Shown one piece after another: positions 6,925-23,524 of a DNA stretch of 24,499 nucleotides. The DNA lies in assembly GCA_017547315.1 (NCBI GenBank), contig JAFYQA010000086.1, forward strand, positions 1 to 24,499. The letters are read 5' to 3'. How positions within the stretch are numbered: position 1 is the first letter of the stretch; every line of letters starts with the position of its first letter. The position numbers and the translations under genes are program-made. Below the pieces are notes generated by a model. It was not told the origin of the DNA and made no database searches. It saw only the letters and a list, made by a program, of their open reading frames with translations. Source of the stretch: Roseburia sp. Its GTDB lineage: Bacteria > Bacillota_A > Clostridia > Lachnospirales > Lachnospiraceae.

Positions 6925-8304
6925 ATGTATAAAATTAATTTCAATCAGCCAATACATGTCCATTTTATTGGAATTGGCGGTATCAGCATGAGTGGTCTTG
7001 CCGAAATCCTACAGGGTGAACACTTTACCATTTCCGGTTCCGACGCCAAAGAATCCGCACTCACGAAACATTTAGAAGAAAAAGGCATGCAGATTTTCTA
7101 CGGCCAGACTGCCGCTAATATTATAGATGGCATTGAACTTGTCGTATACACTGCTGCTATTTCAGAAGATAATCCTGAGTTTGCCTGTGCAAAGGAAAAG
7201 GGCATTCCTATGTTAAGCCGTGCCGAACTTCTTGGACAGATTATGGATAATTACAGCCATTCTATTGCTGTTTCCGGAACTCACGGAAAAACTACTACCA
7301 CTTCCATGATTAGCCAGATTTTATTATCTGCAAGCTGTGACCCTACTATCACAGTCGGTGGTATCTTAGAAGCCATTAACGGCAACCTGCGTGTAGGTTC
7401 CTCAGAATATTTTATTTCTGAAGCTTGTGAATATACCAATAGTTTTTTACATTTTTATCCAAAGTACAGCATTATTTTAAATGTTGAAGCAGAGCACCTT
7501 GACTTTTTCAAGGATTTAGAAGATGTTCGTAATTCATTCCATTCTTTTGCAGGTAATACCAAAGAAGATGGTGTCATTATTATCAATGGCGAAATTGAAA
7601 ATTACGAAGCCATCGTTGCCGGTCTTCCTTCTAAAGTAATTACTTATGGTCTTACCGAAGGTTTTGACTATTATCCGGCTAATATTACTTTTAATGAAAA
7701 AGCATGTGCTTCTTATACAGTTATGTGCCATGGTGAACCGCTTATGGACGTTACTCTCGGCGTACCGGGCATGCATAACGTATCCAATTCCCTTGCAGCA
7801 ATTGCATTATCCATGGAATTGAACTTAGAAAAAGAAGATGTACTGGCCGGACTTTTAGCATTCGGTGGTGCCAACCGTCGTTTCCAGTACAAGGGAACCA
7901 AAAATGGCGTTACCATCGTTGATGATTACGCACATCATCCGACAGAGATTCGTGCTACCTTAAATTCCGCTGCCAATTATCCACACGAACGCTTAGTACT
8001 GGTATTCCAGCCACATACCTATTCCCGTACAAAAGCTTTCCTTGATGAGTTTGCAGAAGTATTAAGTTCCGTAGATGTAGTGGTATTAGCAGACATTTAC
8101 GCAGCACGTGAAAAGAATACCTATGGCATCTCTTCCGAAGACTTACTGAACAAATTAAAAGATTTCGGTACAGAATGCTATTATTTCCCAACTTTTGAAG
8201 AAATCGAAAACTTTTTAGAAAAAAAATGTATGAACGGTGACTTGTTGATAACTATGGGTGCCGGAGACGTAGTAAATATCGGAGAAAATCTTCTTTCTAA
8301 ATAA
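6925..8304 (+). CDS. murC: UDP-N-acetylmuramate--L-alanine ligase
   Basis: MurC adds L-alanine to UDP-MurNAc using ATP, the first amino acid of the peptidoglycan stem peptide, in the cytoplasm. The 459-residue protein has the three Mur-ligase domains: an N-terminal Rossmann domain with HFIGIGGISMSG (13-24), a central ATPase domain with the P-loop GTHGKTT (118-124) and the metal-binding region SEACEYTNSF plus NVEAEHLDFF (165-195), MHNVSNSLAA (283-292), GGANRRFQ (314-321), and a C-terminal domain with DDYAHHP (333-339). Length is normal. AGGA lies nine bases before the ATG. The gene has its own promoter and a strong terminator and stands alone between the glycogen and replication genes. Confidence 0.98.
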   Translation: MYKINFNQPIHVHFIGIGGISMSGLAEILQGEHFTISGSDAKESALTKHLEEKGMQIFYGQTAANIIDGIELVVYTAAISEDNPEFACAKEKGIPMLSRAELLGQIMDNYSHSIAVSGTHGKTTTTSMISQILLSASCDPTITVGGILEAINGNLRVGSSEYFISEACEYTNSFLHFYPKYSIILNVEAEHLDFFKDLEDVRNSFHSFAGNTKEDGVIIINGEIENYEAIVAGLPSKVITYGLTEGFDYYPANITFNEKACASYTVMCHGEPLMDVTLGVPGMHNVSNSLAAIALSMELNLEKEDVLAGLLAFGGANRRFQYKGTKNGVTIVDDYAHHPTEIRATLNSAANYPHERLVLVFQPHTYSRTKAFLDEFAEVLSSVDVVVLADIYAAREKNTYGISSEDLLNKLKDFGTECYYFPTFEEIENFLEKKCMNGDLLITMGAGDVVNIGENLLSK

Positions 8305-8305
8305 T

Positions 8306-8323
8306 TTATCCACATTATCCACA
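8306..8323 (+). promoter_or_regulatory. DnaA-box pair 1 (two abutting perfect boxes)
   Basis: TTATCCACA occurs twice with no gap, at 8306-8314 and 8315-8323, both exact matches to the consensus DnaA box and in the same orientation. The first begins one base after the murC stop codon. A half-degenerate inverted copy (TGTGGATTT, 8354-8362) follows as the other arm of the terminator stem. Confidence 0.85.
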
Positions 8324-8371
8324 TTTGGAATGTTGAAAACATCAACTTCCGAATGTGGATTTCTTTTGTTT
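8317..8371 (+). terminator. Rho-independent terminator of murC, built on a DnaA box
   Basis: Bases 8317-8336 pair with 8342-8360 in a stem of 19 bp with one bulge (8331) and one G-T pair, closing a 5-base loop (8337-8341), followed by TTTCTTTTGTTT. Seven bases of DnaA box 2 form the foot of the 5' arm. Confidence 0.85.
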
Positions 8372-8471
8372 ACATAATTCTTTACCAAAATTTTCAAGGA
8401 TTTCGCATTTTGCTTGATTTTTCGACATTCTTCTCATTTACATAAATTGCTTTCTGAAGTTTTCTACAAAC

Positions 8472-8489
8472 TTATCCACATTATCCACA
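8472..8489 (+). promoter_or_regulatory. DnaA-box pair 2 (two abutting perfect boxes)
   Basis: TTATCCACA is repeated at 8472-8480 and 8481-8489 with no gap, identical over 18 bases to pair 1 and in the same orientation. It ends 46 bases before the candidate dnaD -35 element and 155 bases before the dnaD ATG. Confidence 0.85.
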
Positions 8490-8535
8490 ACTCCGCAAAC
8501 CCTTGATTTTACTGGACTTTTGTAATTTTTTCTTC

Positions 8536-8564
8536 TTCTCTTTTTAAAACTCTTGTGCTATACT
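8536..8564 (+). promoter_or_regulatory. Candidate promoter for the dnaD-loader-prs genes
   Basis: TATACT (8559-8564) is preceded by TG one base upstream (extended -10) and, at 17 bases, by a weak -35 TTCTCT (8536-8541). The predicted leader is about 75 nt. Confidence 0.5.
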
Positions 8565-8644
8565 CAGTACACAAAGTTGCCGGTCTGTGCGTTTTATTGG
8601 CAGACTGACATTCTTTTTCTGTGTTTTAGAAAGGTGTAAGTTTC

Positions 8645-9709
8645 ATGGCAAAAATTAATTTATATTCAGATAATAATAATACCTCTACCAGCGTCTCTAA
8701 TATATTTATTGACGAATATATGTCAGGCGCCAATGGAGAGTTTGTTAAAATATATTTGTATTTGCTTCGTCAGCTGAATTCTTCTGAGGCAGATTTTTCT
8801 CTTTCAGAAATTGCAGACAAGTTTGAACATACCGAAAAAGACGTGAAACGTGCACTCTGTTACTGGGAGCGTATGCAGCTTTTGCACTTAGATTATGATA
8901 CGAACGAGAATTTAATTGCTATCCGTCTGATGGATGCGCTTTCTAAGAGTAAAACCTCTGATACGGATATCGTATCTTCTGACGCTGCAGTGTCTACTCC
9001 TCAACCGACAACTGTTTCTAACGAAACACCCGCAGCAAAATCCTATTCAGCAGATGCTATCAAACAGTTTACTGAACAGGAAGCAGTAACCGAACTAGTC
9101 TTTATCGCAGAACAATATCTCGGTCGAACATTGACAGCTACGGATTTAAATGCTATCTTCTATTTTTATGACGAATTGAAGTTATCCGTAGAATTAATCG
9201 AATACTTAATTGAATACTGTGTATCAAACCGACATACTAGTATTCGATACATAGAAAAAGTAGCCCTTTCCTGGTACGAAAATGGTTATCAAACCATCGA
9301 ACAGGTAAAACAAGCGAATGGACAATATAACCAGTTATACTCAGCCGTTATGAAATCGTTAGGTATTTCTGGCCGTAACCTTGTTTCTGCTGAGATTTCC
9401 TATATCGAAAAATGGAAAAATGAATTTGGTTTCTCCATAGAATTAATCCAGAAAGCTTGTGAAAAAACCATTCAAGCCATTCACGAGCCAAGTTTCGAAT
9501 ATACCGACCGCATTATAAGCAACTGGAAAGACCATCACATCTCCTCTTTAGAAGAGGTAAACAAAGCAGATGAGGAACACCAGAAACGCAAAAAAACGGC
9601 TACGCCGAATCCAAAAACGGTTACCAAAAATAAATTTACTACATTTGATCAGCGCAGTTATGATGACAACCGCCTGGAAAAAATGCTTTTAAATACTTCA
9701 ACTCAGTAA
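8645..9709 (+). CDS. dnaD: DnaD-like primosome protein with two DDBH2 domains
   Basis: DnaD-family proteins remodel DNA and bridge DnaA with the helicase loader at the start of replication and at restart. The 354-residue product has a winged-helix-like DDBH1 domain (about 18-98), a Ser/Thr/Ala-rich linker (100-137), and two DDBH2 (DnaB_2) domains (about 138-225 and 235-310). Each DDBH2 ends in the signature Y-x3-[IV]-x3-W: Tyr202-Trp210 and Tyr286-Trp294. B. subtilis DnaD has one DDBH2 and is about 232 residues; the double arrangement recalls Bacillus DnaB, so one protein may cover both roles, which is inference. The tail FTTFDQRSYD is of a type common after DnaD in Clostridia. The ribosome-binding site is AGAAAGG. 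It is 18 bp ahead of the helicase-loader gene. Confidence 0.9.
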   Translation: MAKINLYSDNNNTSTSVSNIFIDEYMSGANGEFVKIYLYLLRQLNSSEADFSLSEIADKFEHTEKDVKRALCYWERMQLLHLDYDTNENLIAIRLMDALSKSKTSDTDIVSSDAAVSTPQPTTVSNETPAAKSYSADAIKQFTEQEAVTELVFIAEQYLGRTLTATDLNAIFYFYDELKLSVELIEYLIEYCVSNRHTSIRYIEKVALSWYENGYQTIEQVKQANGQYNQLYSAVMKSLGISGRNLVSAEISYIEKWKNEFGFSIELIQKACEKTIQAIHEPSFEYTDRIISNWKDHHISSLEEVNKADEEHQKRKKTATPNPKTVTKNKFTTFDQRSYDDNRLEKMLLNTSTQ

Positions 9710-9727
9710 CATAAAGGAATTACTATT

Positions 9728-10708
9728 ATGGCATTAACAAATTCACAATATGATGAAATACAACGTGGCTATGATGACAGACAATTGCATAACAAAGATC
9801 TCTTAGCCGCCCGCACAAAAGATGCCTATCAAAAGGTTCCTCAATTACAGCAGATTGAACATTCTATCGCAGAATGTTCCGTAATGTCTGCAAGGAAATT
9901 TTTCGATGGTGACGAAGCAGCTATTTCCAATTTAAAACAACAACTTGCTGCTCTGCGTGCACAAAAAACTAATTTATTAAAATCCAACGGTTATCCGGAA
10001 GATTATTTGCAGCCGATTTATACCTGCAAAGACTGCCGTGATACCGGTTTTATCGATGGAAAACACTGTCATTGCTTTACACAACAGGCAATTGACATGA
10101 TATATACCCAGTCAAATATCAAAGATGTTTTACAATCAGAGAATTTTTCGACTTTTTCGTTCGACTACTACTCTGATATTGAAATAAATCCGAATACAGG
10201 TCTTACATCTTTAGACACTGCGAAAGCAGCTTATACAACCTGTCAGGATTTTGTAGAAAGCTTTAACGATTCTTTTTCAAACATTCTTTTCTATGGAGAC
10301 ACCGGAACCGGTAAAACATTCCTCTCTAACTGCGTAGCAAAAGAATTATTAGACAAAGGATATTCCGTTATCTACTTTACGGCTTTCCAATTATTTGATA
10401 TATTAAGTAAGGGGATTTTTGACAAAGATAATAAAGCAATCGATGCACATCAGAACATTTTCGACTGCGATTTATTAATTATTGATGACCTCGGTACCGA
10501 ATTAGTGAATTCTTTTACCACTTCACAGTTATTTCTGTGTTTAAATGAGAGAATTCTCCGTAAAAAGGCTACGATTATCTCTACGAATTTAAATCTCGGT
10601 CAAATAGCCGATATTTATTCTGAGCGTGTCCTTTCGCGTATTGCTGGTCACTATAAAATCATTAAAATGTTTGGCGATGATATCCGTATGAAAAAACGGG
10701 TACATTAA
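9728..10708 (+). CDS. DnaI/DnaC-type replicative helicase loader (AAA+ ATPase)
   Basis: This AAA+ protein is expected to load the replicative DnaB-type helicase onto DNA. Its 326 residues comprise a helical N-terminal region (1-95), a probable zinc site (Cys100, Cys103, Cys114, Cys116, with His113 and His115 nearby), and a C-terminal AAA+ domain: Walker A GDTGTGKT (190-197), Walker B LLIIDD (249-254), sensor-1 Asn287 in STN, and the SERVLSRI segment with arginine-finger candidates Arg300 and Arg304. The zinc site is also found in B. subtilis DnaI, where it modulates DNA binding; this is what separates it from IstB transposition ATPases, as does the absence of a transposase. AAAGGA precedes the ATG. 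It follows dnaD closely and precedes prs by 43 bp. Confidence 0.92.
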   Translation: MALTNSQYDEIQRGYDDRQLHNKDLLAARTKDAYQKVPQLQQIEHSIAECSVMSARKFFDGDEAAISNLKQQLAALRAQKTNLLKSNGYPEDYLQPIYTCKDCRDTGFIDGKHCHCFTQQAIDMIYTQSNIKDVLQSENFSTFSFDYYSDIEINPNTGLTSLDTAKAAYTTCQDFVESFNDSFSNILFYGDTGTGKTFLSNCVAKELLDKGYSVIYFTAFQLFDILSKGIFDKDNKAIDAHQNIFDCDLLIIDDLGTELVNSFTTSQLFLCLNERILRKKATIISTNLNLGQIADIYSERVLSRIAGHYKIIKMFGDDIRMKKRVH

Positions 10709-10751
10709 TATATAACTACACATTAACATAAACACATGGAGGATCACCCAA

Positions 10752-11933
10752 ATGCCAATTAACGAAAGAATTTTAGAAACCACACCTGACGGTATCCTTG
10801 GTCTTATTCCTTTGCAGAGCTGTAAAGAGCTTGGAGACAAAGTTGATGAGTACCTTGTTGAATGGAGAGAAAAAAGAGAACATGAGCATCAGAATGATGT
10901 AGCTTTCCAGGGCTATCGTCGCGACTCTTACATCATCAATACTTCTGTACCACGTTTCGGTACAGGTGAAGCCAAAGCAGTTATCAAAGAATCTGTTCGT
11001 GGTTACGATTTATATCTCTTAGTTGATATTACCAACTACAGTATTACTTATACAGTATCTGGTCATCAGAACCATATGTCTCCAGATGATCACTATGCTG
11101 ATTTAAAACGTATCATTGCAGCCGCAGGCGGTAAAGCAAGACGTATTACAGCTATCATTCCATTCTTATATGAAAGCCGTCAGCACAAACGTACTTCACG
11201 TGAGTCATTAGACTGTGCTATCGCTTTACAGGAATTAACAGCTATGGGCGTTGATAATATTATTACTTTTGACGCACATGACCCTCGTGTACAGAATGCA
11301 ATTCCTTTAAAAGGATTTGAAACTGTTCAGCCAGCATACCAGTTTATTAAAGGTATCTTGAATAATGTAGATGACTTAAAGATTGACAGCGATCACTTAA
11401 TGATTATCAGCCCGGACGAAGGTGGTACAAACCGTGCCGTATACCTTGCAACTGTTCTTGGCGTTAATATGGGTATGTTCTATAAACGCCGTGACTACAG
11501 CCGTATCGTTGATGGACGTAATCCTATCGTTGCACATGAATTCTTAGGAACAGATGTAGAAGGCAAGGACGTTATCATCGTTGATGATATGATTTCTTCT
11601 GGCGAAAGTATGATTGACGTTGCTACAGAATTAAAGAGAAGAAAAGCAAACCGTATCTTCGTAGTTTCTACATTCGGTTTATTCACAAATGGTTTAGAGA
11701 AATTCGACAAAGCTGTAGAAGAAGGTACAATTTATCGTGTTGTTACAACAAACCTTACTTACCAGACACCAGAACTTCTCGCAAGAGATTACTACATCAG
11801 TTGTGATATGAGCAAATACATTGCTTACATCATTGATACTTTAAATCATGACTGCTCTATCAGCGATTTATTAAATCCATACGATAGAATTCAGAAATTA
11901 GTTGCAGAATACAAAGCAGCTCATAACGCTTAA
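10752..11933 (+). CDS. prs: Ribose-phosphate pyrophosphokinase, long divergent form
   Basis: PRPP synthetase transfers pyrophosphate from ATP to ribose-5-phosphate, supplying purine, pyrimidine, NAD, His and Trp synthesis. The 393-residue protein keeps the PRPP-binding loop DVIIVDDMISSGES (273-286), the ATP region with FDAHDPRVQ (His176), the loop SRQHKRTSRE (142-151) in place of the usual YARQDRK, and SPDEGGTNRA in place of SPDxGG-R. It is about 75 residues longer than the usual 310-320, mostly an N-terminal extension, and FSDGE is replaced by FGTGE. All this marks a divergent subfamily that I associate with Clostridia; enzyme identity is very likely but the allosteric site may differ. GGAGG precedes the ATG by nine bases. 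It is last in the dnaD operon and ends in a strong terminator. Confidence 0.93.
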   Translation: MPINERILETTPDGILGLIPLQSCKELGDKVDEYLVEWREKREHEHQNDVAFQGYRRDSYIINTSVPRFGTGEAKAVIKESVRGYDLYLLVDITNYSITYTVSGHQNHMSPDDHYADLKRIIAAAGGKARRITAIIPFLYESRQHKRTSRESLDCAIALQELTAMGVDNIITFDAHDPRVQNAIPLKGFETVQPAYQFIKGILNNVDDLKIDSDHLMIISPDEGGTNRAVYLATVLGVNMGMFYKRRDYSRIVDGRNPIVAHEFLGTDVEGKDVIIVDDMISSGESMIDVATELKRRKANRIFVVSTFGLFTNGLEKFDKAVEEGTIYRVVTTNLTYQTPELLARDYYISCDMSKYIAYIIDTLNHDCSISDLLNPYDRIQKLVAEYKAAHNA

Positions 11934-23128: not shown

Positions 23129-23524
23129 CTATTTTTTCCCGTCCGTATTGTGGATAAATTTAAGAACAGCAGTCCGCATACTCAAGCGTGGATACTCTAC
23201 CACACGTTCCACTGTATAGAAATTTGAGAGTAGCAGGGCAAACACCGCTACACATAAAAAGACCATCGATAATTTTATGGTTTTTCTGACATTTATAATC
23301 TGTGCTGCAATCTGTCGACTAGAGATTGCATTTCTAGTACATAAAAGCTGTGTTGTTTCTATTGTAACATCAGTCAGTACTGCATCTGCTTTCTCCACAT
23401 TTGTCATAACCACAGTCTGAGGGCATAAAAACATAGAATCTGCCTTGACGTCGTCAACACACATTCCTGTCAAAAGAATAATCAACGCTATGAAATTACA
23501 AATCCATTGTTTATTCTTGAACAT
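23129..23524 (-). CDS. Small exported or membrane protein of unknown function
   Basis: Not recognised. The 131-residue protein has a typical signal sequence (KNKQWICNFIALIILLTG, cleavage possible after the Ala near residue 28), an extracytoplasmic stretch of about 50 residues (29-80) with two cysteines (CPQT, LLCTRN), then one hydrophobic helix (about 84-103) and a short basic C-terminal tail of some 28 residues. If the signal is not cut, it spans the membrane twice. GGAGGG eight bases before ATG 23524 and an extended -10 (TGATATAGT, 23545-23553) support expression. It is separated from the upstream genes by a strong terminator. A perfect but isolated DnaA box (TGTGGATAA, 23149-23157) lies in its last codons and is probably chance. 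Confidence 0.75.
   Translation of the reverse strand: MFKNKQWICNFIALIILLTGMCVDDVKADSMFLCPQTVVMTNVEKADAVLTDVTIETTQLLCTRNAISSRQIAAQIINVRKTIKLSMVFLCVAVFALLLSNFYTVERVVEYPRLSMRTAVLKFIHNTDGKK

Follow-up and report, generated by a model that had tools for sequence, protein, structure and literature searches.

In a contig of Roseburia sp., the region between murC and dnaD carries what sequence comparison identifies as a real and conserved DnaA-box promoter element of the Lachnospiraceae type, whose function we infer. It consists of two identical zero-gap doublets of DnaA boxes, one (D1) fused to the end of murC and the other (D2) held at a near-fixed distance from the predicted dnaD promoter. We consider it likely that the region acts as a conserved DnaA-responsive control element of the Lachnospiraceae, in which D2 would control the dnaD-dnaC helicase-loader operon, by activation more readily than by repression, and D1 would serve as a second platform.

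DnaA boxes between murC and dnaD

The window, i.e. the whole stretch of 24,499 nucleotides analysed here, contains on its + strand murC (6925-8304; three Mur ligase Pfam domains, stop codon at 8302-8304), followed by a dnaD-type gene with a DnaB_2 domain (8645-9709; PF07261, E 7.8e-42), by a gene for a dnaC/dnaI-type (IstB/DnaI-type) helicase-loader ATPase that begins 18 bp after dnaD (9728-10708; PF01695, E 3e-18) and, another 43 bp further on, by a ribose-phosphate pyrophosphokinase-like gene (10752-11933; PF13793, E 1.2e-20), which is possibly co-transcribed with dnaD and the loader gene. D1 (8306-8323) starts 1 bp after the murC stop codon, and D2 lies at 8472-8489; both read TTATCCACATTATCCACA. 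The original prediction had placed two such doublets ahead of the dnaD and loader genes, and it holds in its coordinates, in the shared + strand, in the zero gap within each pair and, by the Pfam domains, in the assignment of the genes.

The single box TTATCCACA occurs in exact form six times in the window, on the + strand at 7977 (within murC), 8306, 8315, 8472 and 8481 and on the - strand at 23149, against 0.26 and 0.07 copies expected on the respective strands under an order-1 Markov model; for the 18-mer TTATCCACATTATCCACA the same model expects 3e-6 copies on the + strand. With one mismatch permitted there are 22 boxes, as compared to a mean of 8.6 (sd 2.65) in shuffled sequences, none of which (0/100) reached 22. 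A chance repeat of TTATCCACATTATCCACA is ruled out by these expectations and shuffles together with its recurrence at related dnaD loci. An Rfam search of the window returned no match. Matches to the murC-dnaD region at 66-73% identity also turned up in 13 unannotated records of a phage collection; we read these as bacterial DNA within such records.

A protein search found 6010 DnaD relatives, 120 of which were listed, and 32 sequences, including that of the window, were aligned. A scan of genome contigs confirmed 351 dnaD loci, of which we retained the best 80; these come from Roseburia, other Lachnospiraceae and unclassified Clostridiales. We asked whether close relatives lack the doublets and found the opposite, so that the original prediction stands this check: among these best 80 of 351 loci, the 1 kb ahead of dnaD contains one or more exact doublets in 53 and two or more in 19, while the reverse-strand doublet is found in the same interval at 0/80. 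For measurements we dropped three near-duplicates (L008, L023 and L029) and a locus with only 65 bp upstream (L003), and added the window, which gave 77 loci. With up to four mismatches allowed, D1 is present in 66 of them, D2 in 66 and both in 61; loci without an exact doublet include L050, L058, L061, L063, L066, L069, L070, L072, L075, L076 and others. In L075 (Eubacterium ramulus) dnaD follows straight after murC, with the terminator, the boxes and the promoter all gone, and this locus represents a natural deletion.

The arrangement had been discussed earlier in terms of Bacillus. This frame does not fit, since the closest relatives that turned up belong to Roseburia and other Lachnospiraceae rather than to Bacillus, and since the arrangement was not found at any of 25 dnaD loci without a murC neighbour at the level of the class. 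The latter belong to the best 30 class-level dnaD loci, five of which adjoin murC (one of the five being the genome of L077); all five have the doublet with at most one mismatch, two of them in exact form, whereas the remaining 25 show nothing closer to the doublet than five mismatches.

Position of the D2 array relative to the predicted dnaD promoter

Downstream of D2 we predict a sigma-A-type dnaD promoter (8536-8564, +), with the -35 hexamer TTCTCT at 8536-8541, a 17-bp spacer and an extended -10 element TGCTATACT, whose hexamer occupies 8559-8564. The -10 is the top-scoring extended -10 of the interval from D2 to the start codon, picked without regard to distance; the prediction thus rests on a simple best-match score and is not a mapped start site, and a generic promoter consensus scan of the window did not list it.

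D2 starts 87 bp upstream of this -10 in the window, and 77-97 bp upstream in all 66 loci that have D2. The individual values are 96 bp (23 loci), 87 (19), 86 (8), 97 (5), 85 (5), 88 (3), 77 (2) and 78 (1), which fall into groups of 96-97 bp (28 loci), 85-88 bp (35) and 77-78 bp (3). The D2 array comprises two or three zero-gap boxes, many relatives adding a third, degenerate box in the 9-bp register; the three distance groups therefore represent one 9-bp register, to which, modulo 9, 43 of the 66 loci conform exactly, 18 with a deviation of 1 bp and five with a deviation of 2 bp. The promoter register is occupied by a box with no more than one mismatch at 70/77 loci, and by one with no more than two at 76/77 (all but L075); reversed 9-mers are found in this register at none of the 77 loci. 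When mapped onto a tree of DnaD from 61 loci, the distance from D2 to the -10, in raw form, takes seven values and requires 16 parsimony steps; the distance from D1 to D2 takes 29 values and 41 steps, and that from the -10 to the ATG takes 44 values and 48 steps. Raw distances were used here, since a reduction by multiples of nine in itself narrows the range. Consensus boxes thus lie beside a predicted promoter, and the simplest reading of their constrained spacing is that the position relative to the promoter has been under selection in the relatives; both are features looked for in a DnaA-regulated promoter.

In a later, more distant set of 17 further murC-dnaD loci, 13 of which were found via the exact doublet itself, the array deviates from the register by no more than 2 bp in 12 cases, the last good box preceding the -10 by 67-79 bp; the other five, L143, L149, L174, L175 and L176, are out of fit. 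This set backs the distance more than the register, as 2 bp either way covers five of nine residues.

Other short motifs accompany the arrays. TTTACATAA follows D1 at 8369-8377 (+) and is found in 37/61 loci, mostly 61-63 bp from the start of D1, with 0.05 expected in shuffles; a second copy lies at 8437-8445 (+), 35 bp before D2, where 25/61 relatives have TTACCATAA. The interval from D2 to the promoter contains a conserved block CCTTGATTTTACTGG (8501-8515, +), situated 58 bp before the -10 and present within four mismatches in 50 of 66 loci, and in 48 of those 50 at 29-30 or 38-39 bp from the start of D2.

In the mechanism we propose, DnaA would fill the zero-gap array at D2, about -99 to -82 from the predicted start site, and through the fixed geometry would control the promoter of the dnaD-dnaC operon, which combines a weak -35 with an extended -10. 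The DnaA proteins of eight related genomes all carry DH[ST]T[VI], which we take to be the box-recognition signature of DnaA. Activation is the more likely sign of control, since the D2 boxes stop short of the promoter on its upstream side. Repression by DnaA boxes in such an upstream position can also occur.

The repressive variant, in which a DnaA filament seeded at D2 and D1 would, at high levels of free DnaA, spread across the promoter or loop over it, is possible, though we regard it as distinctly less probable. Zero-gap boxes on the same strand could seed a filament towards the promoter, and looping would be suited by the distances from D1 to the -10 (D1 precedes the dnaD -10 by about 250 bp in most relatives), which cluster in steps of about 11 bp. 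On the other side, the boxes are clear of both the -35 and the -10 in all 66 D2 loci, and the 11-bp signal is weak: the best period is 11.3 bp, with P of 0.026 for 11 clusters and 0.017 with the later set included, with R at 10.5 bp below R at 11.3 bp and the clusters not fully independent. Given this weak periodicity, helical looping between D1 and the promoter is kept only as a lead.

We find it improbable that the four boxes merely form a DnaA reservoir, which would titrate DnaA or alter its nucleotide state and leave dnaD unaffected. They are perfect and form a cluster outside oriC, as a titration site would, dnaA lying 279 and 480 kb off in two related genomes, and in B. subtilis the removal of six extra-origin clusters is described as leading to early initiation in the accessible sections of PMC5295017. 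A reservoir has no need for a fixed distance to a promoter, yet D2 holds one in 66/66 loci, and degenerate boxes remain in the promoter register even in relatives without D1. Of the earlier claim that DnaA controls or is titrated at the operon, the fixed distance favours the first half more than the second, and the two functions can coexist. Control of the dnaD-dnaC promoter by D2 would be the preferred reading.

The D1 doublet and the probable murC terminator

D1 starts 0 bp after the murC stop codon in 32 loci and 1 bp after it in 29, i.e. in 61 of the 66 loci with D1; in the other five the extrapolated stop codon was not resolved. Its second box is contained in the 5' arm of a hairpin (8317-8360, +) with a T-rich tail (8361-8371), probably the intrinsic terminator of murC. 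The RNA fold of 8315-8370 has an energy of -25 kcal/mol (z -6.7), and in 65/66 D1 loci (all but L039) TGTGGAT is the pairing partner of the second box, the two making up the foot of a hairpin that is followed by a T-rich tail; this partner is absent after D2 in 66/66 D2 loci. D1 and D2 are thus not equivalent, D1 being fused with the murC terminator, a point that the original prediction had missed, as it had the distance of D2 from the -10. Among 26 chosen loci, representing 25 distinct sequences, 12 of the 19 pairs of the hairpin show changes on both sides, and the covariation score was reached by none of 500 shuffles. Hence a stable hairpin, a T run and compensatory changes, as looked for in an intrinsic terminator, are all found here. 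The quality of the T-tail is uneven (lowest in L026, with three T in eight), a generic terminator scan of the window did not list the hairpin, and the strict terminator form of D1 was found in 34/150 genomes of a second family draw.

The role of the second box in the stem at 65/66 loci would suit a D1 that is just a terminator, its likeness to DnaA boxes being incidental. We judge this very unlikely, given that the first box is conserved although it lies outside the stem, and that the seven box bases within the stem pair invariantly in 24 or 25 of the 25 sequences while the inner pairs covary. As a second platform for DnaA, D1 could loop to D2 or could halt RNA polymerase arriving from murC.

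The idea that murC-dnaD holds a second origin of replication, or a site of origin unwinding, is suggested by the AT-rich DNA after the box array; it is rejected on GC skew, which stays negative without a change of sign through all 24 of the window's 1-kb steps and which, in the two related genomes mentioned above, flips at dnaA (279 kb from the doublets in G002, 480 kb in G004). The skew around the doublets in both is negative or near zero, and the locus is therefore not their skew origin. The stretches of 20 kb holding dnaA contain no zero-gap pair. A scan for DnaA-trios found none in 8300-8650, and is a weak test, with trio-like runs near dnaA in G002 and none in G004. The genes from murC to the pyrophosphokinase-like gene (6925-11933) are on the + strand, while the other main genes of the region are on the - strand; together with the strong negative skew, this indicates that the cluster, or operon, is probably oriented head-on to the replication fork.

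Other DnaA-box loci and relation to known systems

Eight whole genomes contain 14 exact doublets, 11 at murC-dnaD and three at another recurrent place, with none at dnaA. Exact doublets are present in 94/150 family genomes (reversed control 0/150) and in 28/196 genomes at the class level, a draw that includes G002; ten loci inspected from the latter lie in varied places. In 800 kb sampled from two genomes, zero-gap pairs with at most one mismatch per box occur at murC-dnaD only.

The second recurrent array has the form TTATCCACA, then TTATRCACNRAN immediately before one or two TTATCCACA. It is found with hpf downstream in L082 and in similar loci (L146, L148, L154, L161, L162, L169, L170, L171), and with an NlpC/P60 gene upstream in L158, L159, L088 and L090. 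Among 19 doublet loci outside dnaD, nine have hpf downstream, ten have an NlpC/P60-type gene (one reversed) and four have neither. The pattern TTATRCACNRANTTATCCACA occurs in 50/150 family genomes, with none for its reversed control, and TTGAC is located 124-138 bp past the start of the second array in 22/27 non-duplicate loci. We tentatively suggest, as an idea that may well prove wrong, that the Lachnospiraceae have a small DnaA regulon, in which zero-gap arrays would act as rulers at the dnaD-dnaC and hpf promoter regions and a DnaA-box terminator would stop murC transcription when bound by DnaA.

We found no published description of the murC-dnaD DnaA-box element in the open-licence literature, and the accessible parts of the reviews and of the B. 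subtilis binding study do not name DnaA control of dnaD. The known systems offer partial likenesses. The E. coli DnaA regulon (nrdA, purH, polA and others; PMC11317965, accessible sections) also has same-strand box pairs upstream of genes tied to replication, and there DnaA prefers pairs 2-3 bp apart and requires both boxes; the murC-dnaD element differs in its 0-bp gap, in its dnaD-dnaC loader target and in its fixed register between array and promoter, and its zero-gap geometry appears, in view of that preference, to be a variant. The B. subtilis box clusters (DBCs; PMC5295017, PMC4447404) are likewise intergenic and away from oriC, some of them at regulated genes, whereas the accessible text on them places none at dnaD, in contrast to the murC-dnaD junction described here; in the same text dnaD regulates the binding of DnaA rather than serving as a target. 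DnaD is described there as an inhibitor of cooperative DnaA binding (PMC5295017), so that control of dnaD by DnaA would close a possible feedback loop. E. coli datA, in the descriptions accessible, resembles the element as a strong DnaA site outside oriC, while the conserved feature at murC-dnaD is the spacing to the promoter. In Caulobacter (PMC8203912) DnaA boxes lie upstream of a gene of the helicase stage, dnaB, which is under DnaA control, but this is the helicase and not the loader, in another phylum, and the accessible sections describe no comparable architecture. In S. aureus a WalR ChIP peak is reported upstream of dnaD, with regulation not detected, in the part of PMC10746227 that was accessible.

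The murC-dnaD region offers a zero-gap geometry to set against the 2-3 bp pairs described for E. coli in the accessible text, as well as a box within a terminator stem. DnaD and the loader do their work once DnaA has acted; with an element of near-fixed geometry directly ahead of their genes, a circuit from DnaA to the loader becomes open to experiment in one of the major families of gut bacteria. If the small-regulon reading is true, free DnaA would set the supply of the helicase loader, insulated from transcription of the cell-wall gene, and ribosome hibernation (hpf) would be tied to the state of replication.
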